From Cryobacterium sp. Y50 (lineage in GTDB: Bacteria; Actinomycetota; Actinomycetes; Actinomycetales; Microbacteriaceae): a DNA stretch of 64,000 bases. The stretch lies in the NCBI RefSeq assembly GCF_002929805.1, contig NZ_PJJM01000092.1:1-64000 (forward strand), written 5' to 3'. Under the pieces are notes generated by a model that had not been told where the DNA came from, made no database searches, and saw only the letters and a program-made list of their open reading frames with translations. A program made the position numbers and the translations under genes. The first letter of the stretch is position 1; each line of letters begins with the position of its first letter. This document shows, in pieces, positions 43,079 to 63,105 of this stretch.

Positions 43079-45001
43079 GTGACTACCCGTCGCATGACAG
43101 TCAGCCAGGCACTCATCGAGTTTCTGGCCCACCAGTACACGGTCGATGGCGAGGTGCGTGAGCGCACGATCGTAGGCACGTTCGGCATCTTCGGCCACGG
43201 AAACGTCGCCGGAATCGGCCAGGCCCTCAAGCAGCTCTCGGTTGAAGACCCCACCCTGATGCCGTATCACCAGGCGCGCAACGAGCAGGGAATGGTGCAC
43301 GAATCCATCGCCTACTCGCGCATGACCCGTCGCCGGTCCACCTTCGCCTGCGCGGCATCCGTCGGCCCCGGTGCTACTAACATGCTGACCGGTGCGGCCG
43401 TCGCGACGACCAACCGCCTCCCCGTCCTTCTGCTGCCCTCCGACACCTTTGCCACCCGCGTCTCCGACCCGGTGCTGCAGCAGCTCGAGCTTCCGCACGA
43501 TGCGAGCATGAGCGTCAACGACGCCTTCAAGCCGCTCTCGCGCTTCTTCGACCGGGTGAATCGCCCCGAGCAGCTGTTCTCGGCCGCCCTCGGCGCCCTG
43601 CGAGTACTCACCGATCTGGTCGAGACCGGCGCCGTGACTATTTCCCTGCCGGAAGACGTGCAAGCCGAGGCCGTTGACGTGCCGGCGGAATTTCTCGCCG
43701 ACCGCGAATGGCATATCCGTCGCCCCCGCCCCGACCGCGGCGTCATCGCCGAGGTCGCCCGCGCGATTTCCCGGGCCCAGCGCCCGATGATCGTCGCTGG
43801 CGGCGGCGTGATCTACTCCGATGCCACCGCGGCCCTGCGCGAATTCGTTGAAGATACCGGTATTCCGGTGGGCATGTCGCAGGCAGGCGTCGGTTCGCTC
43901 AGCTGGGACCACGCCCAGAACCTCGGTTCGGTCGGAGCTACCGGAACCACCGCCGCCAACCGCGCTGCCGCCCAGGCTGATCTGATCATCGGTATCGGTA
44001 CGCGCTACAGCGATTTCACCGCCGCGAGCCGCACGGCCTTTCAGAACGCCAACGTGCGCTTCATCAACATCAACATTGCCTCCTTCGACGCGTTCAAGCA
44101 CGGCAGCGCCATTCCGGTTGTAGCGGATGCCCGCGAGTCGCTGCTCGAGCTCACTTCAGCCCTGACGGGCTTCCATGTTTCGGCCGACTTCGAGTCGGAC
44201 TACACGCGCCAGAAGGTCACCTGGGATACTGCTGTCGACGAGTCCTTCGTGGACCGCCGTCGGTCCCTTCCGAGTCAGTCGGAGATCATCGGTGCCGTAC
44301 AGCAGGCCTCCGACCCCCGCGACGTCGTCGTCTGTGCGGCCGGCTCGCTTCCGGGGGACCTGCACAAGCTGTGGCGCGTGCGCGACGACCTCGGCTACCA
44401 CGTGGAATATGCCTTCTCCTGTATGGGCTACGAGATCGCCGGCGGCATCGGGGTGGCTCGGGCCGACACGACCCGCGATTCCATCGTGATGGTCGGCGAC
44501 GGGTCATATCTCATGATGCACTCCGAGATCGTCTCGGCTGTTGCCGAGGGCATCAAGTTCATCATCGTGCTGATCCAGAACCACGGCTACGCCTCGATCG
44601 GACACCTCAGCGAGGACGTCGGATCGCAACGCTACGGAACCCTCTATCGCTATCAGGACAAGGCGGGTAACAACTTCGAGCAGGGTGAGATTCTGCCGAT
44701 CGACCTGGCCGCGAACGCCGCCAGCTACGGCCTGGACGTTATTTCCATCGAACCCAGTGCCAACGCGATCGCCGATCTCTCAGCCGCGATGAAGACCGCC
44801 AAGGCTTCGACCCGCGCCACCATGATCCACATCAACAACGACCCCAGGCTTTATGCACCCGATGGCGAAGGCTGGTGGGACGTACCCGTCGCCGCCGTCT
44901 CCTCCCTGCCAAGTACGCAGCAGGCCCGCACCGAATATCTTGCCCACCGGTCCCGCCAGAAGCCGCTCCTCGGCAACGGCGCCCTCGAAAGGAACAACTA
45001 G
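43079..45001 (+). CDS. iolD: 3D-(3,5/4)-trihydroxycyclohexane-1,2-dione hydrolase
   Basis: A 640-residue thiamine-diphosphate enzyme that opens the inositol ring to 5-deoxy-glucuronate. It has the N-terminal pyrimidine domain with its Glu (ARNEQGMVHESIAYSR), a central FAD/NAD-fold domain, and the ThDP/Mg site GDGSYLMMHSEIVSA (about 476). GTG start at 43079 after AAAGGA. It lies in order between iolB and iolE. Confidence 0.95.
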   Translation: MTTRRMTVSQALIEFLAHQYTVDGEVRERTIVGTFGIFGHGNVAGIGQALKQLSVEDPTLMPYHQARNEQGMVHESIAYSRMTRRRSTFACAASVGPGATNMLTGAAVATTNRLPVLLLPSDTFATRVSDPVLQQLELPHDASMSVNDAFKPLSRFFDRVNRPEQLFSAALGALRVLTDLVETGAVTISLPEDVQAEAVDVPAEFLADREWHIRRPRPDRGVIAEVARAISRAQRPMIVAGGGVIYSDATAALREFVEDTGIPVGMSQAGVGSLSWDHAQNLGSVGATGTTAANRAAAQADLIIGIGTRYSDFTAASRTAFQNANVRFININIASFDAFKHGSAIPVVADARESLLELTSALTGFHVSADFESDYTRQKVTWDTAVDESFVDRRRSLPSQSEIIGAVQQASDPRDVVVCAAGSLPGDLHKLWRVRDDLGYHVEYAFSCMGYEIAGGIGVARADTTRDSIVMVGDGSYLMMHSEIVSAVAEGIKFIIVLIQNHGYASIGHLSEDVGSQRYGTLYRYQDKAGNNFEQGEILPIDLAANAASYGLDVISIEPSANAIADLSAAMKTAKASTRATMIHINNDPRLYAPDGEGWWDVPVAAVSSLPSTQQARTEYLAHRSRQKPLLGNGALERNN

Positions 45002-45003
45002 TC

Positions 45004-45918
45004 ATGTCGGAATCCCAGATTCGCATCGGCACCGCTCCCGACTCGTGGGGCGTATGGTTTCCGAACGACCCGAAGCAGATTCCGTGGGAACGCTTTCTCG
45101 ATGAGGTGCAGGCGGCCGGCTACCACTGGCTGGAACTCGGCCCGTTCGGCTACCTCCCCACCGATCCGGCGCAGCTCGCCGATGAGCTGGCTAAGAGAGA
45201 TTTGAAGCTGTCGGCTGGAACCGTCTTCACCGGTTTTCACAAGGGTGAAGACCAATGGAAGCGGGCCTGGGACCAGGCGCTCGACGTTGCCGGGCTGGTC
45301 TCGCAGCTGGGCGTCGAACACCTCGTTGTGATTCCGGACCTGTGGCGTTCCGATGCCACGGCCGAGGTGCTCGAATCGCGAAACCTCGATAGCGACCAGT
45401 GGAAGAAGCTCTCCGCCGGCCACGACAAGCTCGGCCAGGCCCTGCTTGAAGAGTATGGAATCAAGCAGCAGTTCCACTCGCACGCGGACAGCCACGTTGG
45501 CACCTACCGCGAGGTCGAACGCTTTCTTCAGGAGACCGACCAGGCCTTCACCAACCTGTGTCTCGACACCGGACACTTCGCGTACTACCTCGGTGACAAC
45601 GTCAAGCTCATGACGGCCTACCCGGATCGCATCGGCTACCTGCACCTCAAGCAGGTAGAACCCAACATCTTGGCCGATGTGCTAAAAAACGACCTGCCGT
45701 TCGTCGAGGCCGTGGCGCTGGGAGTCATGACGGAACCGGGCTTCGAGGGCGTGCCGGAGCTGGCACCGATCATTGAAAAAGCTGCCGAAATCAACCCCGA
45801 GATGTTCGCCATCATCGAGCAGGACATGTACGGCTGCGCCATCGACTTTCCGTTCCCGATCGCCCAGCGCACTCGTGAGCACATCTTCAGCTGCACCCGG
45901 GCCGCGCGCATCCGCTAG
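45004..45918 (+). CDS. iolE: Myo-inosose-2 dehydratase
   Basis: A 304-residue TIM-barrel (AP endonuclease 2 fold) dehydratase producing the trihydroxycyclohexane-dione used by IolD. It begins with the IolE hallmark IRIGTAPDSWGVWFP; metal ligands are suggested by the conserved His/Asp/Glu in FHSHADSHVGT, LCLDTGHFAYY and MFAIIEQDMYG. The ATG at 45004 follows the iolD stop by 2 bp, so the pair is translationally linked. Confidence 0.92.
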   Translation: MSESQIRIGTAPDSWGVWFPNDPKQIPWERFLDEVQAAGYHWLELGPFGYLPTDPAQLADELAKRDLKLSAGTVFTGFHKGEDQWKRAWDQALDVAGLVSQLGVEHLVVIPDLWRSDATAEVLESRNLDSDQWKKLSAGHDKLGQALLEEYGIKQQFHSHADSHVGTYREVERFLQETDQAFTNLCLDTGHFAYYLGDNVKLMTAYPDRIGYLHLKQVEPNILADVLKNDLPFVEAVALGVMTEPGFEGVPELAPIIEKAAEINPEMFAIIEQDMYGCAIDFPFPIAQRTREHIFSCTRAARIR

Positions 45919-45967: not shown

Positions 45968-46990
45968 ATGCCTGATCTGAAAATTGCCGTCGTCGGTGCC
46001 GGCCTTATGGGGGCCGACCACGTCATCCGCATCACCGAGCGTATCGCCGGCGCTCGCGTCAGCGTTATCGTCGAACCCGATGAGAGTCGAGCTCAGGCCG
46101 CCCTCGCGCACGCTCCCGGTGCTATGCACTTCACAAAGCTGGAAGACGCCCTCGCTGCCGGTGTCGTCGATGCCGTACTGATCGCCACCCCGGGCCAGTT
46201 TCACGAGCCGGTCCTTTTTCCCGCCCTCGCGGCGGGCATCCCGATTCTGTGCGAGAAGCCGCTGACGCCAACTCCGGAGGCATCACTGCGCATCCTCGAA
46301 GCGGAGCAGGCGGCCGGTGCTGTAGTTGGTCACAAGCTGATCCAGGTGGGCTTCATGCGTCGGTTCGACGCGGAGTACATTGAGCTGCGCGACTTGATCG
46401 TCGCCGGCACGGCGGGGGAGCTGCTGGCTCTCAACTGCGCTCACCGCAACGGGATGGTGCCCGACTCTTACACCAACAGCATGCTCATCGAAGACTCCGT
46501 CGTGCATGAGATCGACGTGGTGCGCTTTCTCACCGACTCGCCGATTGTCGCGATCGAGGTCAAGCACGGCAAGCGCAACACGCTCTCGCCCGATCACCTC
46601 AACGAACCAATCTTCGTGCTGCTGTACACGGAGAGCGGTGTGCTGGCCAATGTCGAGATGAACGTCAGCGTGCAATTCGGCTACCAAGTAAAGACCGAGG
46701 CCGTCTTCCAAAAGGGAATCGCCGAGATCGGCCGCACCGCCGGAATGACCCTGTGGCAGGACGGCCGTTACGGTGGAGTCGAGAACGCGAGCTTCAAAAC
46801 CCGGTTCGCCGCCGCCTACGACAACCAGATCCAGCGCTGGGTAAACGCCACCAAACGCGGCGAGATCGACGGACCGAGCGCCTGGGACGGCTACCTCGCC
46901 TCCGCAGCCTGCGCGGCCGGCGTGACAGCCCTGACTACGAGCGAACTGGTCGACGTTGTGTACGTCGAGCGACCCGCCTTCTACAACTAG
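45968..46990 (+). CDS. iolG: Inositol 2-dehydrogenase, Gfo/Idh/MocA family
   Basis: A 340-residue NAD-dependent oxidoreductase oxidising myo-inositol (or another inositol stereoisomer) to 2-keto-inositol, the first pathway step. Rossmann motif VVGAGLMGADHV (about 9), CEKPLTPTPE with the conserved Lys, and the catalytic DS/xxHEID region LIEDSVVHEIDVVRFL. GAAGGAAA precedes the ATG at 45968. Stereospecificity (myo, scyllo or chiro) cannot be decided from sequence. Confidence 0.9.
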   Translation: MPDLKIAVVGAGLMGADHVIRITERIAGARVSVIVEPDESRAQAALAHAPGAMHFTKLEDALAAGVVDAVLIATPGQFHEPVLFPALAAGIPILCEKPLTPTPEASLRILEAEQAAGAVVGHKLIQVGFMRRFDAEYIELRDLIVAGTAGELLALNCAHRNGMVPDSYTNSMLIEDSVVHEIDVVRFLTDSPIVAIEVKHGKRNTLSPDHLNEPIFVLLYTESGVLANVEMNVSVQFGYQVKTEAVFQKGIAEIGRTAGMTLWQDGRYGGVENASFKTRFAAAYDNQIQRWVNATKRGEIDGPSAWDGYLASAACAAGVTALTTSELVDVVYVERPAFYN

Positions 46991-47020: not shown

Positions 47021-47884
47021 GTGAAGATCGCACTCGACCCCACCCCGTTCCACCACTCGCACTCCCTGCTGGAGTTTCCCCGTCTCGCGGCTGACCTCGG
47101 CTATGAGTGGCTGCAGCTGACGCCGCACGCTGACTTCATCCCGTTCTTCAACCATCCGAAGGCGGACGACGACCTTGTTCAGGCGTTCAAAAAGGCGTGC
47201 ACGGATGTCGGAGTGGGCGTGGCATCCGTTCTGCCGGTCTTGCGGTGGTCGGGTCCCGACGAAGATGCCAGGGAAGCGGCGGTGCGTTACTGGAAACGCG
47301 CCATCGAGATCACGGTCGAACTCGGGGTCGACACAATGAACACCGAGTTCAACGGTCGGCCTGAACTGGCGGAACAGTCGGAGCGGGCCTTCTATCGCTC
47401 GATGGAGGAGCTCGTTCCGACGATCGAGAAGGAAGGGATCCGGGTACTGATCGATCCGCATCCCGATGATTTCGTCGAAGACGGCCTTGCCGCGCTGCGC
47501 GTGATTCGCGGCATCAACTCGAAAAACTTCGGGTTTGTCTACGTGGCCTCGCACACGTTTCACTACGGCAATAGCCCACTCGAAATCATGCGCGCCGCCG
47601 GCGACAAGCTCGGCCTGGTGCATGTCTCCGACACCATGGATCACACGGCGTCGCACGGCCTGCGCTACATCACCAATCCGCCCGGCAATGCCGTGCGGGT
47701 GCACCAACACCTGAAAATCGGCGACGGCGACGTGAACTGGAGCGAATTCTTCGGTGGACTGAAGGAAATTGGATTCCTCGACCGTGCAGACACGGTCATG
47801 GTCTCAAGTGTCTTCGCCGAGGACGAAACCGCCGCCGCGACCGCTATCTACCAGCGCGAAGTGATGACGGATTCGATCGCCTAG
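47021..47884 (+). CDS. iolH: TIM-barrel sugar phosphate isomerase/epimerase, IolH-type
   Basis: A 287-residue AP-endonuclease-2-fold protein placed last in the iol operon as iolH is in Corynebacterium. Metal-site candidates are MNTEFNG (Glu), IDPHPDDF (Asp/His), VASHTFHYG (His) and VHVSDTMDH. The reaction is unproven; isomerisation of a keto-inositol or keto-deoxygluconate is the usual guess. GTG start after AAAGG. A 116-bp AT-richer gap follows. Confidence 0.8.
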   Translation: MKIALDPTPFHHSHSLLEFPRLAADLGYEWLQLTPHADFIPFFNHPKADDDLVQAFKKACTDVGVGVASVLPVLRWSGPDEDAREAAVRYWKRAIEITVELGVDTMNTEFNGRPELAEQSERAFYRSMEELVPTIEKEGIRVLIDPHPDDFVEDGLAALRVIRGINSKNFGFVYVASHTFHYGNSPLEIMRAAGDKLGLVHVSDTMDHTASHGLRYITNPPGNAVRVHQHLKIGDGDVNWSEFFGGLKEIGFLDRADTVMVSSVFAEDETAAATAIYQREVMTDSIA

Positions 47885-48000: not shown

Positions 48001-48825
48001 ATGATCGCGTGGGCCAGGTATCCCTATGACGAAACTCGTCTTCTGGTCACCGGCGCGGGGTCGGGGATTGGACGCGCGATTGCGCGGGCATTTCTCGAAC
48101 AGGGCGCACGAGTACCTGTTGCGGGTCGCCGCGCGGAGGCGCTCCGCGAGACGGTGAAGGACTTCCCCTCCGACTGTTCCCTGATCATCGAGGGCGACAT
48201 GGCGGTACGCGCCGATGTCGAAATGGCAGTGCGCGCCGCCACGGAGATCTGGGGCGGACTGGATACCGTTATTGCCAACGCCGGCCTGTGTGAGCCTGGA
48301 ACCATTGACGAACTCACGAATGAATCGTGGGAGCGAATGCGGTCGATCAACATTGACGGAATGATCCACCTGGCTCGAGCCGCTGTACCGGCGCTGCGCA
48401 AGTCCCGTGGGTCGTTCACAGCGATCTCGTCAATCGCCGGCATGGGTGGTGACTGGCGACAGGTGGGCTACAACGCAACGAAAGGAGCTGTCAATGCCTT
48501 TGTGCAAAGCCTGGCACTCGATCTGGGTCGTGACGGTGTGCGAGTCAACGCCATTGCGCCGGCTTTCACATCGACTCAGCAGACGCAGGAACGACTGGAT
48601 GACTCGGTTTTCTGGTCAGCGCTGCGCGACCGTCTGGCACTGGAACGACCCGCGACACCGAATGACATCGCCAGGGCCGCCTTGTTTCTGGCAAGTCCCG
48701 ACGCCGCCTATATCACGGGTGTCATACTGCCCGTCGACGGCGGCACGACGGCTTCGAGTGGGACTCCACGCCCCCCCGACTACGGTTCGCTGGCCAACCG
48801 CAGCGTTCCTCTCACCCAAGTGTGA
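48001..48825 (+). CDS. Short-chain dehydrogenase/reductase
   Basis: A 274-residue classical SDR: cofactor motif TGAGSGIGRAIA (about 18), NAG in VIANAGLCEPG, catalytic Ser in ISSIAGMGG and Y-x-x-x-K in YNATKGAVNAF, and the typical end ITGVILPVDGG. It probably oxidises or reduces a cyclitol or sugar hydroxyl. It leads the operon with the P450, aldo/keto reductase and creatininase-family genes (40-bp gap to the P450). Codons are less GC-rich than in the iol genes. The ATG at 48001 has no strong Shine-Dalgarno site. Confidence 0.85.
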   Translation: MIAWARYPYDETRLLVTGAGSGIGRAIARAFLEQGARVPVAGRRAEALRETVKDFPSDCSLIIEGDMAVRADVEMAVRAATEIWGGLDTVIANAGLCEPGTIDELTNESWERMRSINIDGMIHLARAAVPALRKSRGSFTAISSIAGMGGDWRQVGYNATKGAVNAFVQSLALDLGRDGVRVNAIAPAFTSTQQTQERLDDSVFWSALRDRLALERPATPNDIARAALFLASPDAAYITGVILPVDGGTTASSGTPRPPDYGSLANRSVPLTQV

Positions 48826-48865
48826 TTGATCACGCCGTCACCCAACATTGTCGCGAAGGAGCGCC

Positions 48866-50248
48866 ATGACAGAAAATCCGCAGCTACGAGTCGCCAGGCC
48901 CGGCTGTTCGCATCTCGAACTCAGTCTTTCTGAAGCAATTGATGATCCGGCCAGGTCGCTGGAAACAGAGACGGTCACTAAACAAGGCGGTGTTGGGCCG
49001 TTGGATTTCACGGTGGATTACGACCCGTTGTCCTACGCGGTGTATGACTACCCCTACGACACCTACAAGCGGCTGCGGGATGCCGCCCCCGTGTATTTCA
49101 ATCGGGACCGGGAAATCTATGTTGTCTCCCGATACGACGACGTTCGTGCCGGCTTGGCCAACAATGTCCAGCTGGTCAACGGTCTCGGGAACGATATCGA
49201 TGGAACACACGACTCCTATGGGGCCGGAATGCTCGTCGCCGAAGACCCTCCCCGCCACACGAACTTGCGGGCGGCCATTCGCCGTACCTTTGCAGCCCGC
49301 GAAATCTTGGCCAAAGAAGACGGCATTCGTGCGTTCACGCAGAGCCTTCTCGCCGACATGCAGGCCAAGGGTGGTGGCGATTTTGCCACCGATTTCGCCC
49401 TGCCCATGTCCATTGGTATGGGTATCTCCTTGCTCGGCTCACCGGCAGAGGACAACACCGCGTTCGTGGAACACCTGTGGCGGGCGATGGAACGAACGGT
49501 GGGCAAGTACGGCATCCCGGTTGACGCGGCGGTAGCGAATGGCGAAACCGAAGAGCTTCTAGCGCGTCGTTTCGCCCAACGTCGTGACGCAATCGCGGCT
49601 GGCGCCGAGACAACTGGCTCCGATGCGTACACCCAGATTTTGCTGGCCTCCCAGAAGGGGAAAGTACTTGAAGCTGAGCAGGACGGTTTAGCCCATCTCA
49701 TCCTCTCTGCCGCCAGCGATGCCCCGGCAGCCCTGCTCACCAACCTGGTTTATGTCTTGGATAAATTTCCGCGCCTGCAAGGACATTTGCGCTCTCACCC
49801 AGAGTTGATCACAGCGTTTGTTGAGGAGACCTTACGTTACGAAACGCCGGGACAAAATGTGTCGCGACAAACCACGGAGCAGATCGTGATCGCCGGGGTC
49901 ACGATTCCGGCCGATTCCCGAGTGATGTTTTTGCAGGGGTCAGCGAACCGGGACGAACGCGTGTATCCAGATCCGGACGTTTTCGACATCAGTCGGGAGT
50001 TCACGCCGAAGAACCGCATCATGTCGTTCGGTGAAGGTATTCACGCTTGTATGGGCGCGCCGTTCGCTCGCATGGCAGCAAAAATCATGGTCGAGGAGCT
50101 GCTGGCCGGACCTGATATTCGCATTGTCGGCTCCCCTGAACGCTGGGTGAAGCAGTTGGTGCGCGGATTCTCCGCTCTCCCTGTCGAATTCGCCGCGCCC
50201 GGCAGCGGCGTCGTCCATCAGCACTTCACTCTAGGAATTGGACGGTAA
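48866..50248 (+). CDS. Cytochrome P450 lacking the usual I-helix threonine
   Basis: A 460-residue soluble bacterial P450. The heme loop is FGEGIHACMGAPFARM with the thiolate Cys395, and the ExxR motif is EETLRY (Glu321, Arg324). In the I-helix the usual A-G-x-[DE]-T-T is replaced by A-S-D-A-P (Asp285, Ala286, Pro287), so the oxygen-activating Thr is missing, as in P450eryF and P450cin. GAAGGAG precedes the ATG at 48866. Its probable electron donors, an FprA-type reductase and a flavodoxin, lie 1.9-3.6 kb downstream. Context suggests oxidation of an inositol derivative, such as O-demethylation; a terpenoid substrate cannot be ruled out. Confidence 0.92.
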   Translation: MTENPQLRVARPGCSHLELSLSEAIDDPARSLETETVTKQGGVGPLDFTVDYDPLSYAVYDYPYDTYKRLRDAAPVYFNRDREIYVVSRYDDVRAGLANNVQLVNGLGNDIDGTHDSYGAGMLVAEDPPRHTNLRAAIRRTFAAREILAKEDGIRAFTQSLLADMQAKGGGDFATDFALPMSIGMGISLLGSPAEDNTAFVEHLWRAMERTVGKYGIPVDAAVANGETEELLARRFAQRRDAIAAGAETTGSDAYTQILLASQKGKVLEAEQDGLAHLILSAASDAPAALLTNLVYVLDKFPRLQGHLRSHPELITAFVEETLRYETPGQNVSRQTTEQIVIAGVTIPADSRVMFLQGSANRDERVYPDPDVFDISREFTPKNRIMSFGEGIHACMGAPFARMAAKIMVEELLAGPDIRIVGSPERWVKQLVRGFSALPVEFAAPGSGVVHQHFTLGIGR

Positions 50249-50253
50249 ACCCC

Positions 50254-51228
50254 ATGCAATATCGCTCTTTTGGTAGAACAGGATGGGATGTTAGCGAGAT
50301 CTCCTTCGGCGCATGGCAGCTCGGCGGCCAATGGGGCCAGGTCGACGATGAAGAGTCGATTGCGACCCTTCTGGCCGCGTACACCCTTGGCATCAACTTT
50401 GTCGACACCGCTGAGTTCTATGGAGCTGGCCACAGCGAAGAAGTGATCGGCGAATCTCTTCGCCGCTGGGACGGGGACCGCATCTACGTTGCCACCAAAA
50501 TTCAGCCAACTCGCTGGCCGAACGCCGACGAAGACAACCCCAAGATGCGTGGCCGCTACCCCGAGTGGCATCTGCGCAACGGCGTCGAGCTCGCGTTGAC
50601 CCGGCTTGGCGTTGAACGGCTTGATCTCCTTCAACTGCATTGCTGGGTCACCGACGGACTGAACAACCTGGATTGGCTGGAAACCCTCAATGCCCTGCGG
50701 GTTGAGGGCAAGATAGACAAAATCGGGGTTTCCATTCGCGACTACCGCCCCGATGAAGGAGTGAATCTTGCGAATCTCGGACTAGTTGACTCCATCCAGG
50801 TCATTTTCAACTTATTCGAACAACGTCCAGTGACCAATTTATTTCGGGCAGGAGCGCGAACGAAGACCGCGTTCATTGACCGGGTCGCCTTCGACTCGGG
50901 CTCCCTCAGCGGTGCGTGGACTCCCTCAACCTATGACTCGTGGGAGGTCGGCTCGCAGCAGCACCAGATGTTTCGCGGTGAACGGTTCACCGAAACTTTG
51001 AAACGCGTCGAAGCGTTGAAAGCGATCTGCGCGCCGTATTACCTCACCCTGGCGGAGGCTGCCATGCGATACACCCTGAGTTCACCCGACGTCTCGACCG
51101 TGATCGCGGGCATGAGCACGCAGAAAAACGTCGAGCGCAACGCCTCGTACTCCGATGGCCAGGCGTTCCCCCCGGAACTGCTCGACCAGCTTGCGGAGCA
51201 CAACTGGCCCAGAAACTACTACAAATGA
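50254..51228 (+). CDS. Aldo/keto reductase
   Basis: A 324-residue NADPH-dependent AKR with the catalytic tetrad Asp51, Tyr56 (FVDTAEFYGAGHSEE), Lys82 (VATKIQP) and His129 (LLQLHCW). It resembles the YajO/IolS-like class, members of which are often found with inositol genes. A plausible role is reduction of a keto-cyclitol or of an aldehyde released by the P450 (inferred). It starts 5 bp after the P450 stop and overlaps the next gene by ATGA, so it is part of the same operon. Confidence 0.88.
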   Translation: MQYRSFGRTGWDVSEISFGAWQLGGQWGQVDDEESIATLLAAYTLGINFVDTAEFYGAGHSEEVIGESLRRWDGDRIYVATKIQPTRWPNADEDNPKMRGRYPEWHLRNGVELALTRLGVERLDLLQLHCWVTDGLNNLDWLETLNALRVEGKIDKIGVSIRDYRPDEGVNLANLGLVDSIQVIFNLFEQRPVTNLFRAGARTKTAFIDRVAFDSGSLSGAWTPSTYDSWEVGSQQHQMFRGERFTETLKRVEALKAICAPYYLTLAEAAMRYTLSSPDVSTVIAGMSTQKNVERNASYSDGQAFPPELLDQLAEHNWPRNYYK

Positions 51229-51968
51229 GAGATGCAAAACTTCGACAAGTTCAAGTCGAGTACCTCTCGCCCGCCGAACTTGACGCAGCTTTGGCTGCTG
51301 CGTCCATCGTGTATTTACCGCTGGGGACGATTGAATTTCATGGTTCGCATCTGCCGGTCGGTCTGGACGCTCTAACGGCCCACGGGCTGTGTATTGACGC
51401 TGCTCAACGGACTGGTGGTCTGGTCCTCCCTCCGCTGTACCAAGGCACGGGAGGAGGGCATTCCGCCTACCCGTGGACGATCATGATGCCAACAGCTACA
51501 GCAATCCGATCAAACGTGCACCACACCCTGCAACGATTGTCTGATTTCGGTGTGCGGAAAACTGTTCTGTTCACCGGTCATTTTCCCGACGAACAGCTCG
51601 ATCTCATCGACGGGCTGGCAGCCGAGTGGAACACGCAGGGAACTCACACCATGCGGGTTTTGGCTACCGGTGTCAACCGGTGTACCGAGGCGCCTCTCGC
51701 TCCCGACCATGCCGGGGTGTTCGAAACCACTCTGCTGCACTCGTTCTGGCCCGATTTAGTACACCTCGACCGACTGCCGCCCGCAGACATGCATCCGGCA
51801 GTTGACCCGGCCGGTGACGATCAGGGTCGGCACCGGCATGACTCCGCCCATCCGTTGTGGGGAATTTTTGGCCCGGACCCGCGACGTCTGGATCTATCCA
51901 GCAGCGGTCTTCTGCGCGAGTTTCTGGTCGGGTGGCTCAGTGGTCAAGTTCTCAAGCTCACGGCTTGA
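51225..51968 (+). CDS. Creatininase family metal-dependent hydrolase
   Basis: A 247-residue creatininase-fold protein. The metal motif E-x-H-G-x-H-L-P is intact (Glu37, His39, Asp48 in GTIEFHGSHLPVGLDA), and a late Glu is seen in DHAGVFETTLL. The central motif is TGHFPDEQ (His119) instead of the usual N-G-H-G-G-N, so the substrate pocket differs from creatinine amidohydrolases. Family members cleave cyclic amides, lactams or peptides; a lactone- or ring-opening role in cyclitol breakdown is a guess. ATGA overlap with the aldo/keto reductase. Confidence 0.82.
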   Translation: MRDAKLRQVQVEYLSPAELDAALAAASIVYLPLGTIEFHGSHLPVGLDALTAHGLCIDAAQRTGGLVLPPLYQGTGGGHSAYPWTIMMPTATAIRSNVHHTLQRLSDFGVRKTVLFTGHFPDEQLDLIDGLAAEWNTQGTHTMRVLATGVNRCTEAPLAPDHAGVFETTLLHSFWPDLVHLDRLPPADMHPAVDPAGDDQGRHRHDSAHPLWGIFGPDPRRLDLSSSGLLREFLVGWLSGQVLKLTA

Positions 51969-52021
51969 TGGGTGCAACTGTCACGATTCGCGTCGGCTCT
52001 GTACCGGCGATTTCATCAAAC

Positions 52022-52037
52022 ACTAGCACGTGCTAGT
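52022..52037. promoter_or_regulatory. Perfect 16-bp palindrome, probable operator
   Basis: ACTAGCACGTGCTAGT, centred on CG as in many LacI-family operators, lies 13 bp upstream of the -35 box of the reductase-flavodoxin promoter. The nearby LacI-family gene is a natural candidate reader, but a TetR-type protein would also fit. Confidence 0.6.
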
Positions 52038-52050
52038 AAATCATGCTATG

Positions 52051-52078
52051 TTGACCTGACAAAGTTCTATTTAGCCTA
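52051..52078 (+). promoter_or_regulatory. Promoter of the reductase-flavodoxin genes
   Basis: -35 TTGACC (52051-52056), 16-bp spacer, -10 TAGCCT (52073-52078), 24 nt before the ATG at 52103. Confidence 0.6.
52052..52061. promoter_or_regulatory. IolR-type site TGACCTGACA over the -35 box
   Basis: Matches KGWCHTRACA at every position and overlaps the -35 hexamer of the reductase-flavodoxin promoter, the same arrangement as at iolC. Confidence 0.5.
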
Positions 52079-52102
52079 CGAACACTGCAAGGGGCAGCAC
52101 GT

Positions 52103-53431
52103 ATGCACAGGAGTGAACTCTCGACCGTTAACGGGGAGTTAGCCGTGTTTGCCCCCGCGACGCACTCCATCGCCATCGTCGGCAGTGGACCGTCGGGTTG
52201 TTACGTCGCGCATTTCCTGCGCAAGCGCTGGCCGACTTCCGAAATCGTGATCTTCGATCGTTTGGATCTTCCCTACGGACTCGTGCGTTACGGCGTGGCG
52301 CCCGATCACACCGGCACGAAAGCGGTGGCCCGGCAGTTCGACCGCCTGTTTGAGCAGAGTGGGGTGCGCTTTGTCGGCGGGACCGAAATCGGTCGGCACA
52401 TCACGGTGGACCAGCTGCGTGAAGCCTTTGACGTTACCGTGCTCGCGACCGGCCTCTCTGCCGACCGAGCCCTCGAAATCCCCGGTGCCACCAGCAACGT
52501 TCCCCGGGCCACGACTCTACCGGCCGGCGCCGACGTCACCGGTGCGGCTCTGGCTGGAATATACGGTTCGGGACGAGTCACCCGCCTGATCAATGGTCAC
52601 CCCGACGAGAGTGCCAACGGTGTGGTATTCGGCTCGCGTATCGCGATCGTCGGGCAGGGCAATGTGGCCGTTGACCTGCTCCGAATGTTCCTGATGTCGC
52701 CGGAGGAACTTCGTGGCCATGGCGTGGCCGATGAAGTCGTCAATGCCATCGCTGCCGGGCCGGTGCGGCACATCGACATCGTGGGACGATCCAGCCTCTC
52801 ACGAGCAAAATTCGATCCTGCGATGATCCGCGAGTTGGCGAGAATTCCCAACGTGCGTTTTCTGGCCGATCCCAGTGAACTCCACGACGCCGACACGGAG
52901 CCTCGGGACTCGGCTAAATGTGACGCGCTTCTTAACCTGCTCGCGGCCGCATCGGCCGCATCGGCCGTTGACGGCGCTCAAAATACGGATGCTGCCGCGG
53001 GCTCTGACCGCACGGTACGATTTCATTTTGGTTGGGTGCCGGAGCGGATCGAAGGCGACGACACCGTTGAGGCCCTTATCTTTCGCAGTGCCGATGGTAT
53101 CCAGTCCTCGTTCCGGCTCGCCGTCGACTCAGTGTTGACCGCCATTGGCTTCTTCGAAGCAGAAGATGCCCCAGTGCGTCGCCAGGCCCACGAATCGCAC
53201 GATAGCGACCTCGATATCGGACGCCTCGGACCGGGGTTGTTTTGCGTCGGTTGGCTCCGTCGCGGGCCGCAGGGCACCATTCCTGCCAACCGCACTGACG
53301 CGAAGATGGTGGCTGATGTCATCGGTGCAGCTGCCGACGCTGGCGAATTTTTCCCGGGAAAGCCCGGGTTTTCCGGACTGAACCTCCCGACTCTGAACTG
53401 CCCGCATCGCCCTCGCCCGCACGACCTTTAA
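52103..53431 (+). CDS. FprA-type NADPH:ferredoxin/flavodoxin oxidoreductase
   Basis: A 442-residue adrenodoxin-reductase-like flavoprotein. FAD motif VGSGPSGCYVAHFL (about 27), the family piece LPYGLVRYGVAPDH, NADPH motif VGQGNVAVDLLRMF (about 183) and the C-terminal GWLRRGPQGTIPANRTDA. It should pass electrons from NADPH to the flavodoxin 13 bp downstream and then to the P450, like cindoxin reductase in the P450cin system. AAGGGG precedes the ATG. It has its own promoter with an IolR-type site and a palindrome. Confidence 0.9.
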   Translation: MHRSELSTVNGELAVFAPATHSIAIVGSGPSGCYVAHFLRKRWPTSEIVIFDRLDLPYGLVRYGVAPDHTGTKAVARQFDRLFEQSGVRFVGGTEIGRHITVDQLREAFDVTVLATGLSADRALEIPGATSNVPRATTLPAGADVTGAALAGIYGSGRVTRLINGHPDESANGVVFGSRIAIVGQGNVAVDLLRMFLMSPEELRGHGVADEVVNAIAAGPVRHIDIVGRSSLSRAKFDPAMIRELARIPNVRFLADPSELHDADTEPRDSAKCDALLNLLAAASAASAVDGAQNTDAAAGSDRTVRFHFGWVPERIEGDDTVEALIFRSADGIQSSFRLAVDSVLTAIGFFEAEDAPVRRQAHESHDSDLDIGRLGPGLFCVGWLRRGPQGTIPANRTDAKMVADVIGAAADAGEFFPGKPGFSGLNLPTLNCPHRPRPHDL

Positions 53432-53444
53432 CATAGGAACGCTC

Positions 53445-53888
53445 ATGAGCACAACTGTCATCTTGTACGGAACCGAATCCGGCAATGCCGAATTGGTCGC
53501 CGAAGACCTGGCCGCCGAGCTGGAGGGAGAGCGGGAGGTCTCCGTCTACGACATGTCAGATTTCGACGTCGCCGATTTCGATGCCGAAAATTTCTACCTC
53601 GTCGTGTGCTCCACGCACGGCGACGGAGAACTCCCAGGCGGGGCGACGCCCCTGTTCGAAGCGCTCAACAGCGAGCGGCCGAATTTGTCGGGTATCCGCT
53701 ACGCCATGTTCGGTCTCGGCAACAGCACGTATGAGACCTACAGTCAAGGCAGCGAAATCATTGACCGCCGACTCACCGAACTCGGGGCGAAACGGGTAGG
53801 AGTATACGGTCGTCATGACGCCTGCGACGGATCACTTCCGAATGACGGCGCGGTCGAATGGGCTCGCGAACTACTTGTGCTGGTGTAA
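53445..53888 (+). CDS. Flavodoxin (cindoxin/MioC/CPR-FMN-like)
   Basis: A 147-residue FMN protein. The phosphate loop is YGTESGNAE (residues 9-17), followed by STHGDGELPGG and FGLGNSTYETY, the aromatic-rich FMN shields. The sequence is closer to the FMN domain of P450 reductases, MioC and cindoxin than to long-chain nitrogen-fixation flavodoxins. As no ferredoxin gene is near, it is the likely direct electron donor to the P450. AGGAA precedes the ATG. It converges on the LacI gene with a 9-bp gap and no terminator hairpin. Confidence 0.92.
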   Translation: MSTTVILYGTESGNAELVAEDLAAELEGEREVSVYDMSDFDVADFDAENFYLVVCSTHGDGELPGGATPLFEALNSERPNLSGIRYAMFGLGNSTYETYSQGSEIIDRRLTELGAKRVGVYGRHDACDGSLPNDGAVEWARELLVLV

Positions 53889-53897
53889 CCGCGCGGG

Positions 53898-54923
53898 CTA
53901 CCGAGACGGCACGGCCGTGCTGCCGCGGACGACGAGCCGGGCACTCGTGAAGACTTGCGAGCCTGCGGCACCCGTGTCGGTGATTCGAGTAATGGCCGCG
54001 GCCATGGCAGCCGCGCCGACCTCTCGGGGGTCTTGACGCACCGTCGTGAGGTTCATGAACGACAACCGGGCGACGCGGTTGTCATCAAATCCCGTGATCG
54101 AGACATCAGCTGGAATGCGCACGCCGGCGGCCGCAAGGGTGTAACTGAGGCCGAGGGCGGCTTGGTCGTTACTGCAGACAATGGCGGTCGGGAGCACCGC
54201 GCCGGCAAGGAGGATGCGTGCGGCGCTAGCCCCGCATTCTTCGGTGTAGTCGCCCCGAACTTCGAGAATCTGCTCGGTGAGGGCGAGTCGCTGCACGGCC
54301 GCACGGTAGCCGGAGAGCCGCAGCGTGCCGTCAAGCATGTCGACGCCGTGCACGTACACGATTTCGGTATGGCCGAGGCCGGCCAAGTGCATAACGGCGG
54401 ATTCGATTCCGCTGTCGCCCTGCGAACGGACGAGGTCGAAGTCACAGTCGGGGATGCCCCGGCCGATGACCACAATGGGAATCTGTCCGGCGGCGCGGCG
54501 CAGTAGCTCCGGTGAGGAACGCGGGGCAATCAGGATGAGCGCCTCACATCGATGGCCGACGATCTCGGTTATCGCCTCGCTTTCGTCCCTAATCGGCGTG
54601 AGCGCACTGACCACAAGCCGGTAGCCGGATTCGTGAGCGACGGCGTAGAGCCATTCGATGATCTCGACCGGGGCCGAGTGAGCGGGATCGAAGATGACCC
54701 CGATGTATTTGGTCGAACCGGCGCGCAAGGCGCGGGCCGCCGTGTTTGGACTGTAGCCAAGAATCCGAGCGGCTTCCAGGATTCTTTCCCGGGTATCGGC
54801 ACCGACTCCCGTGGCATTTCGAAACACGAGCCCTACGAGCTGGCGAGACACTCCGACCCGCTGCGCGACATCGGCCATGGTCGCCGGGCGCAGACCTGCG
54901 GTCGGCGATGATTGGTCGGTCAC
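53898..54923 (-). CDS. LacI-family transcriptional regulator
   Basis: A 341-residue regulator with an N-terminal HTH (ATMADVAQRVGVSRQLVGLV) and hinge (SPNTAARALRAG), then a periplasmic-binding-protein-like sensor domain (about 65-340). It should respond to a sugar or cyclitol. The GTG at 54923 is preferred over an ATG at 54950 because AAAGGA stands at the right distance before it. It is divergent from the first ABC transporter operon, which it probably controls along with the palindrome at 52022. Confidence 0.9.
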   Translation of the reverse strand: MTDQSSPTAGLRPATMADVAQRVGVSRQLVGLVFRNATGVGADTRERILEAARILGYSPNTAARALRAGSTKYIGVIFDPAHSAPVEIIEWLYAVAHESGYRLVVSALTPIRDESEAITEIVGHRCEALILIAPRSSPELLRRAAGQIPIVVIGRGIPDCDFDLVRSQGDSGIESAVMHLAGLGHTEIVYVHGVDMLDGTLRLSGYRAAVQRLALTEQILEVRGDYTEECGASAARILLAGAVLPTAIVCSNDQAALGLSYTLAAAGVRIPADVSITGFDDNRVARLSFMNLTTVRQDPREVGAAAMAAAITRITDTGAAGSQVFTSARLVVRGSTAVPSR

Positions 54924-55045
54924 TGTGGTTCCTTTCGACGCAAAGGTCATCGTAACGTCCCGGTCGCTACGCCGCGTGTCTGCACAAATCACCGCTCCAT
55001 TTGTCACCGTTTGATAACGGATGCCCAACTCGATAATTTCAGGAC

Positions 55046-55074
55046 TTGTGCCGCTCGAGTTTATGACGTAAGAA
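55046..55074 (+). promoter_or_regulatory. Candidate promoter of the first CUT2 transporter operon
   Basis: -35 TTGTGC (55046-55051), 17-bp spacer, -10 TAAGAA (55069-55074). An IolR-type site follows directly. The rest of the 276-bp divergent region holds no gene. Confidence 0.4.
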
Positions 55075-55084
55075 TGTCCTAACA
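55075..55084. promoter_or_regulatory. IolR-type site TGTCCTAACA at the transporter promoter
   Basis: Matches KGWCHTRACA at every position and lies just after the proposed -10 box, across the expected transcription start. Confidence 0.45.
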
Positions 55085-55199
55085 AAGAATCTGTCGTCAC
55101 TCGGTCCCCCGCTACCGCCAGTCATTTGCAGTGCAGCTGCCCTTCCCCCGGCAGGAGCGCACAACTCACAATCCGTTCTTTTGAAAGGGACACAACGAC

Positions 55200-56252
55200 G
55201 TGAAACTCACTCTCAACACCAAGCGCGGCCTGGTCGCCGTGGCTATCGCGAGCACGGCAATGCTCGGCTTGGCAGCCTGTACCGCAAGTGGAACTGAAAC
55301 AAAAGCGGCCGACTCCAGCGCTTCCGGCCTCGAGTCCGGATTCGGAGCCCGCGGCGAAAACCGCGACGCGTACTTCATCACCTATTACAACCCGGCATCA
55401 GACGCCTTCTGGGCACAGATCCTTGCCGGTGCAGAGGATGCCGCCAAGCTCGGTAACCTCAACCTCACCCACCAGACGGCTGACGCCGACCCCGCCACCA
55501 TGGTGACCCTGGTTCAGACCGCAATCGCCACTGACCCGGCGGTGATTTTCATGCCCTTCAACGAGGGCGAAGCCTGGGTTGACGTTGCCTGCCAGGCACA
55601 CGATGCCGGAATCACCGTCATCTCGTACAATGTTCCAGCACCCGATACTGCCGGTGAATGCGTCTCCGGCTTTGTCGGCCAGGACTTCTATGAAGTCGGC
55701 GGCATCGTCGGCCAGGCGCTCCTCGACTCCGGCAAGGTCTCGACCGGTGACAAGGTGCTCATCACGGCTGAAGAGCCCGACCAGCCCTACGCACTGCAGC
55801 GTGGTGGCGGAGCCTTCGACGTTCTCGACGCGGCTGGCATAGGCGTTCTTCCGCAGGAGCAGTGGCTTCGAGTGGGTGGCGACGATGCCGGTGCTCTCGA
55901 CGCGCTGACCTCCTGGCTCGTTGCAAACCCCGATGTTAAGGCTGTTATCCCCGTCGGTGGCACCCCGCACCGTAACCTGCCCGCCGCTCTTGAAGCAGCC
56001 GGTCTCTCCGATGTGTCGATCATTGGCTTTGATACCGCTCCCCAGATCGTTCAGGGTTTGAAGGATGGCGTCATCCTCGCAACGGCTGACCAGCAGGGCT
56101 ACGTTCAGGGCTTCCAGTCCACCATGCAGGGTGTCCTCTCGCTGGACTTCGGTTTCTCGCCGGCGAACATCAACTCCGGTGGTACCGGTCTGATCACCAC
56201 GGATAACGTCGACAACATCGAAGCTAAGGACCTTCAGGGCATCCGCTGGTAG
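55200..56252 (+). CDS. CUT2-type sugar/cyclitol ABC transporter substrate-binding lipoprotein
   Basis: A 350-residue RbsB-like binding protein. Signal peptide with lipobox LAAC (Cys27, MLGLAACTASG), then a type I periplasmic-binding fold: FITYYNPASDAFWAQI, FMPFNEGEAWVDVAC, and IIGFDTAPQIVQGLKDG. The ligand is probably an inositol or inositol derivative, judged from the IolR-type site and neighbours. GTG start at 55200 after AAAGGGA. A perfect hairpin lies between this gene and the permease, the usual way to make more binding protein than permease. Confidence 0.9.
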   Translation: MKLTLNTKRGLVAVAIASTAMLGLAACTASGTETKAADSSASGLESGFGARGENRDAYFITYYNPASDAFWAQILAGAEDAAKLGNLNLTHQTADADPATMVTLVQTAIATDPAVIFMPFNEGEAWVDVACQAHDAGITVISYNVPAPDTAGECVSGFVGQDFYEVGGIVGQALLDSGKVSTGDKVLITAEEPDQPYALQRGGGAFDVLDAAGIGVLPQEQWLRVGGDDAGALDALTSWLVANPDVKAVIPVGGTPHRNLPAALEAAGLSDVSIIGFDTAPQIVQGLKDGVILATADQQGYVQGFQSTMQGVLSLDFGFSPANINSGGTGLITTDNVDNIEAKDLQGIRW

Positions 56253-56316
56253 TTAGTGGCGCGGCATGGCTGGCATTAGTCAGTAGCTCCACGCGGTTGT
56301 AGTTCAATCACAGAGG

Positions 56317-56351
56317 CCAGGGCCGATCGTCAGCTCGTCGATCGGCCCTGG
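56317..56351 (+). terminator. Intraoperon hairpin (attenuator/mRNA stabiliser) after the binding-protein gene
   Basis: A perfect 13-bp stem (56317-56329 with 56339-56351) and 9-nt loop, no T-run. It lies in the 162-bp gap before the permease gene. Confidence 0.7.
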
Positions 56352-56414
56352 TTCCACCCCACACCTCAAAAACTTCCCGGCACCTTCATCTCGTGTGCTC
56401 AAAGGAAAGAAGCC

Positions 56415-57509
56415 ATGTCAGACAAAACCCCCGGCCGTAGAGGCCCCATCCTCGAAGTGCCGCTTCCGACCGAGGCTATCTCGCTCAAGCGCAAGCCGTC
56501 CGGTGAGCCAGATTCGCTTTTCGGCCGGATGAACTACAACCTGCAGTTCATTCGCGGTCGTGGCGCACTCGAAATCAGCATCGTTTTGATCGTGCTCCTT
56601 GCGGGATATGTCACCGCAAGCCTGATCTCCCCGACCGGCTTCGCCTTTCTCAACCCGAACAACTTATCGGGTGTGATCTCGCAGAGTGTGCCAGTGCTGG
56701 CTATCCTCGGGCTCGCCGCTGGCATCCTGATGATTGCCGGAGAATTCGACCTCTCGCTGGGCGCGAACATCACGCTCAGCGCCATCGTGTTCATTAAGAC
56801 CTCGGAAGCCGCCGGACTGTGGCTCGGCATTGCTGCTGGCATTGCCACGGGTGTCGCCGTAGCGCTCGTCAACGGCATTATCGTTGTCTACACGAAGATC
56901 CCTTCCTTCATCGCCACGCTGGGCATGAGCTTCTTCTGGATGGGTGCCGGCATCTTCATCAACGGCACCTCACCCGCCGCGTTGACGACCTCGCGCGAAG
57001 GCACCATGGAGTACCTGTTCGCACACAACTTCGGTTCGTTCCGGTCCCAGCTGGTGTGGCTGCTGATCATCGGTGTTCTGGCCTGGTTCTTCATGCACCG
57101 CCACAAACTCGGCAACCACATCTTCGCCGTTGGTGGCAACCCGGCCGCGGCCGAGGCCATCTCGATCAAGACCAAACGCGTCAAGCTCATGTCGTTCGCC
57201 ATTTTTGGCGGGCTGGTCGGCTTCGCAGCCATCCTGATTGCCGTGCGCACCTCGTCGATTCAGCCCGGTGGTACCGCCACCGAAGACTTCACGCTCTTTG
57301 CGATCGCCGCCGCAGTCGTCGGTGGCACATCGCTGACGGGTGGGCGCGGCAGTGTTATCGGCATTATCGTTGGTGCTGCGCTGATCGAACTCATCCGTAA
57401 CGGACTTCTGCTCGCCAAGGCACCTGGCTTTTACATCACCCTGTTCGTCGGCGTCACCATCGTTATCGCGGCGATCTTCAACAAGCTCATGGAAGGGAAA
57501 GCGCGATGA
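56415..57509 (+). CDS. CUT2-type sugar ABC transporter permease
   Basis: A 364-residue RbsC/FrcC-like permease with an N-terminal cytoplasmic stretch of about 45 residues and eight to ten transmembrane helices. Family motifs: AGEFDLSLGANITLSA, PSFIATLGMSFFWMGAG, VGGNPAAAEAISI, and GGTSLTGGRGSVIGIIVGA. AAAGGAAAG precedes the ATG. Its stop overlaps the ATPase start by ATGA. Confidence 0.92.
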   Translation: MSDKTPGRRGPILEVPLPTEAISLKRKPSGEPDSLFGRMNYNLQFIRGRGALEISIVLIVLLAGYVTASLISPTGFAFLNPNNLSGVISQSVPVLAILGLAAGILMIAGEFDLSLGANITLSAIVFIKTSEAAGLWLGIAAGIATGVAVALVNGIIVVYTKIPSFIATLGMSFFWMGAGIFINGTSPAALTTSREGTMEYLFAHNFGSFRSQLVWLLIIGVLAWFFMHRHKLGNHIFAVGGNPAAAEAISIKTKRVKLMSFAIFGGLVGFAAILIAVRTSSIQPGGTATEDFTLFAIAAAVVGGTSLTGGRGSVIGIIVGAALIELIRNGLLLAKAPGFYITLFVGVTIVIAAIFNKLMEGKAR

Positions 57510-58276
57510 GCGAGGCACTGCTTCGAATCGAGGGCGTATCCAAGAAATACGGTCCCAATACGGTACTCAAGGACGTGTCGTTTGAAATTGGCAAGGGCGA
57601 AGTTGTCGGCCTGCTCGGTGATAACGGTGCTGGAAAGTCCACCCTGGTCAAGATCATGTCGGGCGTCGTGGATTCGACCGTCGGCGATTTCTTCTGGGAC
57701 GGCCAGAAGATCGAAAAAATGAACCGAAACGTCACCGAGAAGTTGGGCGTGGAAACCATCTTTCAGGATTCCGCCCTCGTTCCCCAGATGACGATTACCC
57801 GCAATATCTTCATGGGCCGTGAAGTCACCAACCGGTTCGGCTTCATGAAGATGAAAGAAATGGATGCCGTTGCTGCCGAAGTTCTCGACAGCGTCGTCAC
57901 CATCGAGGGAATCAAGAGCCCCAAGCAGCTGGTGAGTTCACTCTCGGGAGGTCAGGCGCAGGCCGTCGCCATTGCCCGTGCGGTGCACTTCAAGCGCAGT
58001 CTGCTCATTCTCGATGAGCCCACCTCGGCTCTGGCCGTTCGTGCCACCGAGGCGCTGCTGGGCTACCTGACCCAGCTGAAGGGCGAAGGGGTGAGCTCCG
58101 TGCTCGTCACCCACAACCTGCACCACGCATTCCAGGTGTGTGACCGTCACATCGTGATGAACCACGGCAAGAAGATCTTGGACGCCCGTCGCGAAGACAC
58201 GAGCGTCGAGGAACTGACCGCCGCCGTTGTCGAGGGCGCAGTGGGTCTGGCGCGATTCCGTGAAGGATCGTTCTAG
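57506..58276 (+). CDS. CUT2-type sugar ABC transporter ATP-binding protein (single domain)
   Basis: A 256-residue ATPase with Walker [15 protein letters not shown], signature LSGGQAQAVAIARA, Walker [12 protein letters not shown] and the H-loop VTHNLHH. RbsA-type proteins carry two such domains (about 500 residues); this one has a single domain, as in FrcA-type systems, and would act as a homodimer. Translationally coupled to the permease. Confidence 0.92.
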   Translation: MSEALLRIEGVSKKYGPNTVLKDVSFEIGKGEVVGLLGDNGAGKSTLVKIMSGVVDSTVGDFFWDGQKIEKMNRNVTEKLGVETIFQDSALVPQMTITRNIFMGREVTNRFGFMKMKEMDAVAAEVLDSVVTIEGIKSPKQLVSSLSGGQAQAVAIARAVHFKRSLLILDEPTSALAVRATEALLGYLTQLKGEGVSSVLVTHNLHHAFQVCDRHIVMNHGKKILDARREDTSVEELTAAVVEGAVGLARFREGSF

Positions 58277-63074: not shown

Positions 63075-63105
63075 CGGGAGGGTATTTTCTTCCTTCGCGC
63101 TCAAC

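Follow-up and report, generated by a model that had tools for sequence, protein, structure and literature searches.

What does a cytochrome P450 equipped with its own electron-transfer partners do beside an operon for inositol catabolism? The question arises from a 64,000-nucleotide stretch of the Cryobacterium sp. Y50 genome (contig NZ_PJJM01000092.1, positions 1 to 64,000; hereafter the window), in which genes for a P450, an aldo/keto reductase (AKR), a creatininase-family hydrolase, an FprA-type reductase, and a flavodoxin follow a set of iol genes. The answer that we favor, with a probability of roughly 0.55, is an inducible three-component P450 system that oxidizes a small polar cyclitol for the iol pathway, most likely by O-demethylation of a methyl-inositol, a substrate that we infer. 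Such a cassette would probably prepare modified inositols, for example the methylated ones of plants, for use as food. Its protein families are ordinary, and it is their combination, probably co-regulated, that is new and conserved.

A P450 module near inositol genes

The six genes between positions 48001 and 53888 are long open reading frames (ORFs) on a single strand, each with a family match (ORF map and Pfam). These genes and the iol genes that precede them are:

38748-39710, + strand: iolC (NCBIfam IolC, 372.9 bits; cut-off 300)
39707-40588, + strand: LacD/IolJ-like aldolase (name assigned by us; no NCBIfam match at E 1e-10)
40626-42137, + strand: iolA (mmsA) (NCBIfam MMSDH, 678.5 bits; cut-off 448.5)
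42140-43045, + strand: iolB (NCBIfam IolB, 253.5 bits; cut-off 205)
43079-45001, + strand: iolD (NCBIfam IolD, 829.1 bits; cut-off 715)
45007-45918, + strand: iolE-like gene (IolE model, 132.6 of 290 bits, below the equivalog cut-off)
45968-46990, + strand: iolG-like gene (IolG models, 268.3 of 540 and 165.1 of 355 bits, below the cut-offs)
47021-47884, + strand: TIM-barrel protein (AP_endonuc_2; PF01261, 153 bits)
48001-48825, + strand: short-chain dehydrogenase/reductase (SDR) (PF13561, 191.8 bits; nearest NCBIfam model meso-2,3-butanediol dehydrogenase, 265.7 of 270)
48866-50248, + strand: cytochrome P450 (PF00067, 90.7 bits; cut-off 22.8; alternative ORF opening at TTG 48848)
50254-51228, + strand: AKR (PF00248, 163.2 bits)
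51225-51968, + strand: creatininase-family hydrolase (PF02633, 106.1 bits; gathering score 31.3)
52103-53431, + strand: FprA/adrenodoxin-reductase-type NAD(P)H flavodoxin reductase (PDB matches adrenodoxin reductase, E 1.1e-38, and FprA, E 6.5e-37)
53445-53888, + strand: FMN flavodoxin (PF00258, 106.0 bits; best PDB chain cindoxin, E 6e-28)

The first-pass annotation had placed the six genes between a complete iol operon and two CUT2 transporter sets. The layout stands, but the completeness of the operon is in part a matter of position, because the IolE- and IolG-like proteins score below their own cut-offs.

The P450 recurs at 16 distinct orthologous loci with 52–87% identity, other P450s being mostly at or below 34%. 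These are the window, L034–L044, G285, G007, G207, and G654; G053, which agrees with L040 in P450 sequence and in the location of IolD, is counted once with it. Five of 299 genomes sampled from the family, our own included, have a P450 of at least 60% identity over most of its length, and the next-best P450 in that sample is at 33% (146 bits vs 540). A genome collection held 41 loci with a relative of the P450, 11 of them (L034–L044) at 55% identity or more and 30 at 40% or less. Profile searches of 396 genomes of the order added one further orthologue, G654 (66% identity), and those at the level of the class (394 genomes) and of the phylum (396 genomes) returned none beyond that of our own genome. 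A search of 72,556 plasmid records at E 1e-50 gave no match, so that spread on plasmids was not seen there. Judged by these identities, the cassette is spread over several actinobacterial lineages. The Cryobacterium loci L034 and L035 are close relatives, with iol proteins 89–97% identical to those of the window, and the module is also present in small genomes of 1.1–1.4 Mb, namely G207 (99% complete) and three metagenome-assembled genomes (MAGs) or single-cell assemblies that may be incomplete.

The link to inositol catabolism that had been claimed for the locus is carried by the neighbors of these orthologues. Genes of the iol type, at 60% identity or more, lie within about 10 kb of the P450 at nine of the 16 loci (the window, L034–L039, L041, and G207); at about 35 kb the count rises to 11, with the addition of G007, where iolC is about 30 kb off, and L043, which has an IolG of 62% identity about 17 kb off and an IolD-like protein of 41%. 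None of 30 control loci with a non-orthologous P450 had iol-type genes within flanks of at most 10 kb, some less; one control, L053, had a single weak IolA-type aldehyde dehydrogenase (27%). IolD is found at E 1e-60 in all 16 P450-positive genomes and at E 1e-150 in 15, the exception being G1033, the genome of L043 (4e-145, 44%); at E 1e-150 it is present in 96 of the 299 genomes of the family. The association of module and iol genes is beyond chance, and the genome search that the first-pass annotation had proposed finds this P450 mostly near iol genes, with no terpene gene recognized among the neighbors identified, of which a part was scanned.

The placement of the module varies, following iolG and the TIM-barrel gene in the window, preceding iolC together with a transporter in Subtercola, and following iolE-iolG in Microbacterium yannicii. 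Because gene orders and strands differ between lineages, the association cannot be put down to the inheritance of a single synteny block. A Rhodoluna MAG has fprA, fld, iolC, iolJ, iolA, iolB, and iolD in this order on the same strand, separated by no more than about 120 bp and preceded by a promoter that bears the palindrome described below.

The SDR, AKR, and creatininase-family genes had been put forward together as parts of the module, which holds for two of the three. An AKR orthologue is present at 14 of the 16 P450 loci and a hydrolase orthologue at 13; the hydrolase gene of G285 is in two pieces, and the L042 contig ends after the P450. The SDR is found near the module only in the window, L034, L035, and L038, with a fragment in L039, a distribution by which it is an accessory outside the regular module. 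The three solved relatives of the AKR at E 1e-20 include GSP69 and IolS, and the enzyme may serve in redox adjustment of the cyclitol. In the hydrolase, Glu37, His39, Asp48, His119, and Glu167 are conserved among nine sequences and form a putative metal site, of which we take them to be the ligands. The protein was rejected as a creatininase (TIGR04448, 81.8 bits against an equivalog cut-off of 235) and as the 3-dehydro-scyllo-inosose hydrolase IolN (NF041098, 33.8 bits against 245).

The P450 and its electron path

The flavodoxin/FprA electron path proposed for the P450 is borne out by natural gene fusions. FprA and flavodoxin are encoded at the same locus as the P450, or fused with it, at 15 of the 16 orthologous loci; at L035 the iol genes stand between them and the P450, at a distance of about 15 kb, and at the sixteenth locus, L044, the P450 itself is extended at its C terminus by a reductase that includes a 2Fe-2S domain. 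In Microbacterium yannicii (L039) and Gryllotalpicola (L040), FprA, flavodoxin, and P450 form single chains of 984 and 970 amino acids, respectively, uninterrupted by a stop, which represent one fusion lineage because their P450 parts are 92% identical. These fusions are direct evidence of the order of the path and support a transfer of electrons that would run from NAD(P)H through FprA and flavodoxin to the P450. We know of no earlier description of a single-chain FprA-flavodoxin-P450 layout, which, as a self-sufficient P450, would be useful as a ready biocatalyst.

The likeness to the cindoxin system was also seen rightly, cindoxin being the closest solved relative of the flavodoxin, so that a cindoxin-type carrier stands here beside a flavoprotein reductase. 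P450cin (CYP176A1), the partner of cindoxin, degrades the terpenoid cineole and has Asn at the I-helix site where the P450 of the window has Ala; the context here, in contrast, is one of sugars and cyclitols. The use of cindoxin, a flavodoxin-like carrier, by P450cin is described in PMC9687028.

The P450 has the hallmarks of its superfamily, with the heme-ligand motif FGEGIHACMG, including Cys395, and the ExxR residues Glu321 and Arg324 invariant in an alignment of 11 orthologues. Its I helix reads Asp285-Ala286-Pro287 in all 11, and also in 15 distinct rows of a second alignment; the usual Thr is thus replaced by Ala, which breaks the acid-alcohol pair, a feature that the superfamily does not require. 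At the same site, 38 other aligned P450s have Thr in 29 cases and Ala in seven. This comparison was made without five of the 16 orthologues (G285, G007, G207, G654, and L044) and without 17 of 55 other P450 loci (L009–L033 and L045–L074), which failed a length/stop filter or gave no full match. In P450eryF, where the I-helix Thr is likewise lost, a substrate hydroxyl helps, and a polyol could do the same. Hydroxyls of the substrate would then stand in for the missing Thr, and a P450 that handles a very polar substrate without this residue would offer a natural setting in which to test whether the substrate assists oxygen activation.

The BC loop (residues 108–117, GNDIDGTHDS) is invariant in the 11 aligned orthologues, which suggests one shared substrate, and substrate recognition site (SRS) 5, within provisional boundaries set from the alignment, exceeds that of each of the 38 other P450s in hydrophilicity. 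A structure model built from 49 sequences has the general P450 fold with a predicted local distance difference test score (pLDDT) of 85.4, an earlier one from 11 sequences having reached 58.7. Its solved structural neighbors are generic P450s, with 22–31% identity among the matches listed and no hint of the substrate; they include the methoxybenzoate P450s CYP199A4 and PbdA, along with many other P450s, and that neither P450cin nor the 6-O-methyl-galactose P450s were recognized among the matches listed says nothing either way. Assignment to a named CYP family requires identity of more than about 40%, and judged against solved structures, rather than against characterized P450s lacking one, the protein probably belongs to a new family. 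The 4.40-Mb genome has two further P450 matches.

The XplA/XplB system of Rhodococcus comprises a flavodoxin-P450 fusion and a flavodoxin reductase and has lost the Asp/Glu-Thr motif (PMC8081977), and thus shares with the module the pairing of flavodoxin and flavodoxin reductase, the occurrence of fusions (here in relatives), and the loss of the motif. It differs in that XplA fuses flavodoxin, at the N-terminal side, and P450 alone, whereas the ORFs are separate in the window and the reductase is fused as well, ahead of the flavodoxin, in L039 and L040; moreover, XplA reduces a nitramine, and the P450 here keeps the acid.

HtaA domains bind heme on cell surfaces. A protein of about 150 amino acids with such a domain is encoded between P450 and AKR at seven of the 16 distinct loci (L036:11206-11667, PF04213, 79.9 bits; L037, L038, L039, L040, G007, and G654); no obvious signal sequence was seen in these seven proteins, and no such protein was found in the window. 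It might hand heme to the P450. Separately, Nocardioides bruguierae encodes two different P450s (L044:10013-12160 and L108:15744-17954) whose C-terminal 2Fe-2S reductase domains are, by eye, very similar; the second of them lies on the organism's own iol contig, the one with three copies of the palindrome.

Regulation and uptake

The remaining features of interest lie around and downstream of fprA and the flavodoxin gene:

52022-52037, no strand: perfect 16-bp palindrome ACTAGCACGTGCTAGT 5' of fprA, a proposed LacI operator
53898-55100, - strand: LacI-family regulator (PF00356, PF13377; helix-turn-helix at residues 74-119)
55200-58276, + strand: CUT2-type transporter 1 (substrate-binding protein (SBP) 55200-56252, permease 56415-57509, ATPase 57506-58276)
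58383-59402, + strand: TIM-barrel isomerase/epimerase-like protein (PF01261, 61.8 bits; PDB 2zds)
59490-62334, + strand: CUT2 transporter 2 (SBP 59490-60503, permease 60500-61540, ATPase 61537-62334)
62340-63140, - strand: GntR-type regulator, proposed for iol (no NCBIfam model above cut-off)

Because the helix-turn-helix of the LacI-family protein sits at residues 74-119, the true start of its ORF is probably further in. The palindrome has a single copy at up to two mismatches in the 4.4-Mb genome, and its chance expectation in the window is 0.12 at up to three. Among nine genomes, most of them chosen because they had already shown the site or the LacI gene, it is found exactly in six and with up to two mismatches in all nine. 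Two-mismatch sites mean little, because a reversed-pattern control also matches at two mismatches in six of the nine genomes (eight times in our own; not at all in G207, G1042, and G1033), and the 14-mer core matches unrelated places at two to three mismatches. The palindrome lies at module promoters in L034 (one mismatch), the genome of L035, L041, L042, L043 (one mismatch), and G207; in L038 it lies 5' of the LacI gene with two mismatches, and on the iol contig of the genome of L044 it occurs three times. A LacI gene is present in the examined sequence at seven of eight module loci with the palindrome (not L041), and this co-occurrence suggests that the LacI-family protein binds ACTAGCACGTGCTAGT. 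At the seven loci without the palindrome at the module, a GntR gene lies near fprA instead.

A second palindrome, TTGTCATGACAA, has matches at 38660-38671, 52051-52062, and 63141-63152, one each 5' of iolC, of fprA, and of the GntR gene. These three compare with 1.14 expected, and nine of 100 shuffles reach three, so that TTGTCATGACAA is a suggestive candidate for the GntR operator. An orthologue of the GntR gene adjoins iolC in L036, L037, and G007. A further GntR gene follows the hydrolase gene in L035 (13205-13960), where it is intact, and in L034 (13155-13457), where about 100 amino acids are left; it is not seen in the window, as for a regulator being lost in Cryobacterium. An ORF at 63222-63998 (- strand), which is open at the window end and has an end that by eye resembles an HNH endonuclease, adjoins the GntR gene at the window end.

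Sugar-type transporters are frequent companions of the module. Thirteen of the 16 loci have a CUT2 set or a major facilitator superfamily (MFS) sugar porter no further than about 20 kb away, the MFS porter being above its cut-off in L038, L039, G285, and G654; at G007 the distance to the sugar-type transporter is about 25 kb, and in the flanks examined of L041 and L044 none was recognized. In L034, L042, and L107, an orthologue of SBP1, the binding protein of transporter 1, adjoins the LacI gene and the module. The transporter of SBP1 is a candidate uptake route for methyl-inositol. SBP2 has its best PDB match in 4ru1 (E 4e-69), presumably a myo-inositol complex, and its sole NCBIfam match at E 1e-20 is the rhizopine-binding model NF052284 (246.4 bits; cut-off 420). 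In Subtercola, the CUT2 genes next to the module are followed by a transaldolase-family gene (PF00923, 122 bits; L036:17779-18867), which has a counterpart, matched by length and place alone, at L037:13273-14361.

The proposed reaction and its rivals

Plants accumulate methyl-inositols, pinitol among them, as abundant osmolytes. In the scheme that we favor, whose putative substrate class and reaction the first-pass annotation had already proposed by analogy, such a compound would enter by a sugar-type transporter, for which that of SBP1 is the candidate, and the regulator would leave the module promoter. Supplied with electrons by FprA and flavodoxin, the P450 would oxidize the methyl group off a pinitol-, ononitol-, sequoyitol-, or bornesitol-type substrate, and the free inositol would enter the iol pathway. 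The Bacillus subtilis iol regulon shares with the window the Iol pathway and an IolS-like AKR and has, to our knowledge, no P450, flavodoxin, or creatininase-family gene. Demethylation of pinitol would yield D-chiro-inositol, a compound that in B. subtilis enters the pathway through iol genes (PMC5504672).

Two known systems come near to this scheme. The catabolism of rhizopine (3-O-methyl-scyllo-inosamine) likewise concerns an O-methylated inositol derivative, CUT2-type uptake, and the inositol pathway. There, mocDE demethylates the compound, and we know of no P450 among the moc genes. The moc genes are mocDEF, mocR, mocBA, and mocC (PMC10107442). The other is the P450 O-demethylase of 6-O-methyl-D-galactose in marine Flavobacteriia (Zobellia and Formosa), whose description includes a ferredoxin, a ferredoxin reductase, and a zinc alcohol dehydrogenase (ADH) (PMC10033563). 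Likened by description and not by sequence, the two P450 systems share a P450 with its own redox partners beside genes for a methylated sugar, which the system here would set free; they differ in the carrier, a ferredoxin there, whereas here flavodoxin and FprA are joined by an AKR, a creatininase-family hydrolase, and an iol operon, in actinobacteria. The open-access literature searched describes no bacterial enzyme that demethylates methyl-inositols. If the scheme is right, the pairing of this P450 module with an inositol operon names a testable methyl-inositol demethylase, small genomes included.

Several findings weigh against this reading. No gene for the handling of formaldehyde was recognized within the module, a weak point that the first-pass annotation had rightly raised, and the best match to the mycothiol-dependent formaldehyde dehydrogenase (TIGR03451) in our own genome scores 231.8 bits against a cut-off of 512.9, the model being passed in four of the 16 P450-positive genomes. 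Removal of formaldehyde by this enzyme was therefore rejected for our genome, folate and generic ADH routes lying outside this check. Nor would plain O-demethylation call for a conserved hydrolase. As for the iol link, iolD is 1.4 and 0.5 Mb from the module in G285 and G654, the iol genes are on another contig in the case of L044, and L040 and L042 are short contigs without iol genes; L044, from Nocardioides, lacks both AKR and hydrolase, and its P450 has amidase and luciferase-like genes as neighbors. The control is imperfectly matched, because the 30 loci come from other taxa, which may lack iol genes. By the identity table, which does not include G654, the 16 loci make up about eight lineages, so that counts over them are not counts of independent events. 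In the P450 itself, the BC loop departs from the common sequence at two positions in G285 and at one in L044; SRS1 is weakly polar, 10 of 38 other P450s being equally hydrophilic, and neither SRS6 nor the core nor the part of the I helix that precedes the acid exceeds other P450s in polarity.

The scheme does not account for the hydrolase, the AKR, or the destination of the one-carbon unit, so that a different reaction on a cyclitol, without demethylation, is its main rival. The P450 might hydroxylate a deoxy- or amino-cyclitol or oxidize a ring carbon, with AKR and hydrolase completing a new branch of the iol pathway. Both of these enzymes, kept at most loci, would be needless for plain O-demethylation, and the dedicated formaldehyde dehydrogenase is not above its cut-off in 12 of the 16 genomes; the hydrolase superfamily includes IolN, if with a weak match, and the sole NCBIfam match of SBP2, below cut-off, is to a rhizopine-binding protein. 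However, the iol pathway already handles inosose by dehydration and IolD, and the sole carbohydrate-directed bacterial P450 in the literature covered is an O-demethylase (PMC10033563). We regard such a branch as possible but doubtful. In another version of methyl-inositol demethylation, the methyl ether would be oxidized past the hemiacetal to a formate ester, from which the hydrolase would free formate and inositol; the methyl group would then leave without formaldehyde. This version, which combines oxygen activation by a substrate hydroxyl with a new P450 family, seems to us improbable.

Cindoxin as the closest solved relative of the flavodoxin calls to mind a terpenoid or methoxylated aromatic substrate, as for P450cin and flavodoxin-linked Arthrobacter P450s, with the iol neighborhood incidental. 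An Arthrobacter cluster of two P450s with a flavodoxin and a flavodoxin reductase has been reported (PMC9687028), and CYP199A4 and PbdA are among the structural neighbors, along with many other P450s. Against such a substrate stand the 11 of 16 loci near iol-type genes vs none of 30 controls, the sugar-type transporters at 13 loci, and the polar SRS5; in addition, no terpene or aromatic catabolic cluster was recognized among the identified neighbors, which are a part of all, most neighbors being mapped as ORFs and a part of them scanned. We consider this explanation quite unlikely.

The broken Asp/Glu-Thr pair admits a P450 that acts reductively, or otherwise not as a monooxygenase, in the manner of XplA. 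Ala286 is present in 11 of 11 aligned orthologues vs Thr in 29 of 38 other P450s, and XplA likewise combines a flavodoxin with loss of the motif (PMC8081977). Yet the acid Asp285 is kept in all 11, Ala also occupies the site in seven of the 38 comparison P450s, and natural cyclitols have no obvious reducible group, so that we hold a reductive role to be very unlikely.

To a chance gathering of unrelated genes we give next to no credence: the module is patchy, its P450 orthologue being absent from all five other sampled genomes of the genus and, our own genome included, present in two of 396 genomes of the order, one of 394 of the class, and one of 396 of the phylum, but the idea is refuted by conservation, the same partners recurring in distant lineages in varied arrangements, with fusions and a shared palindrome.

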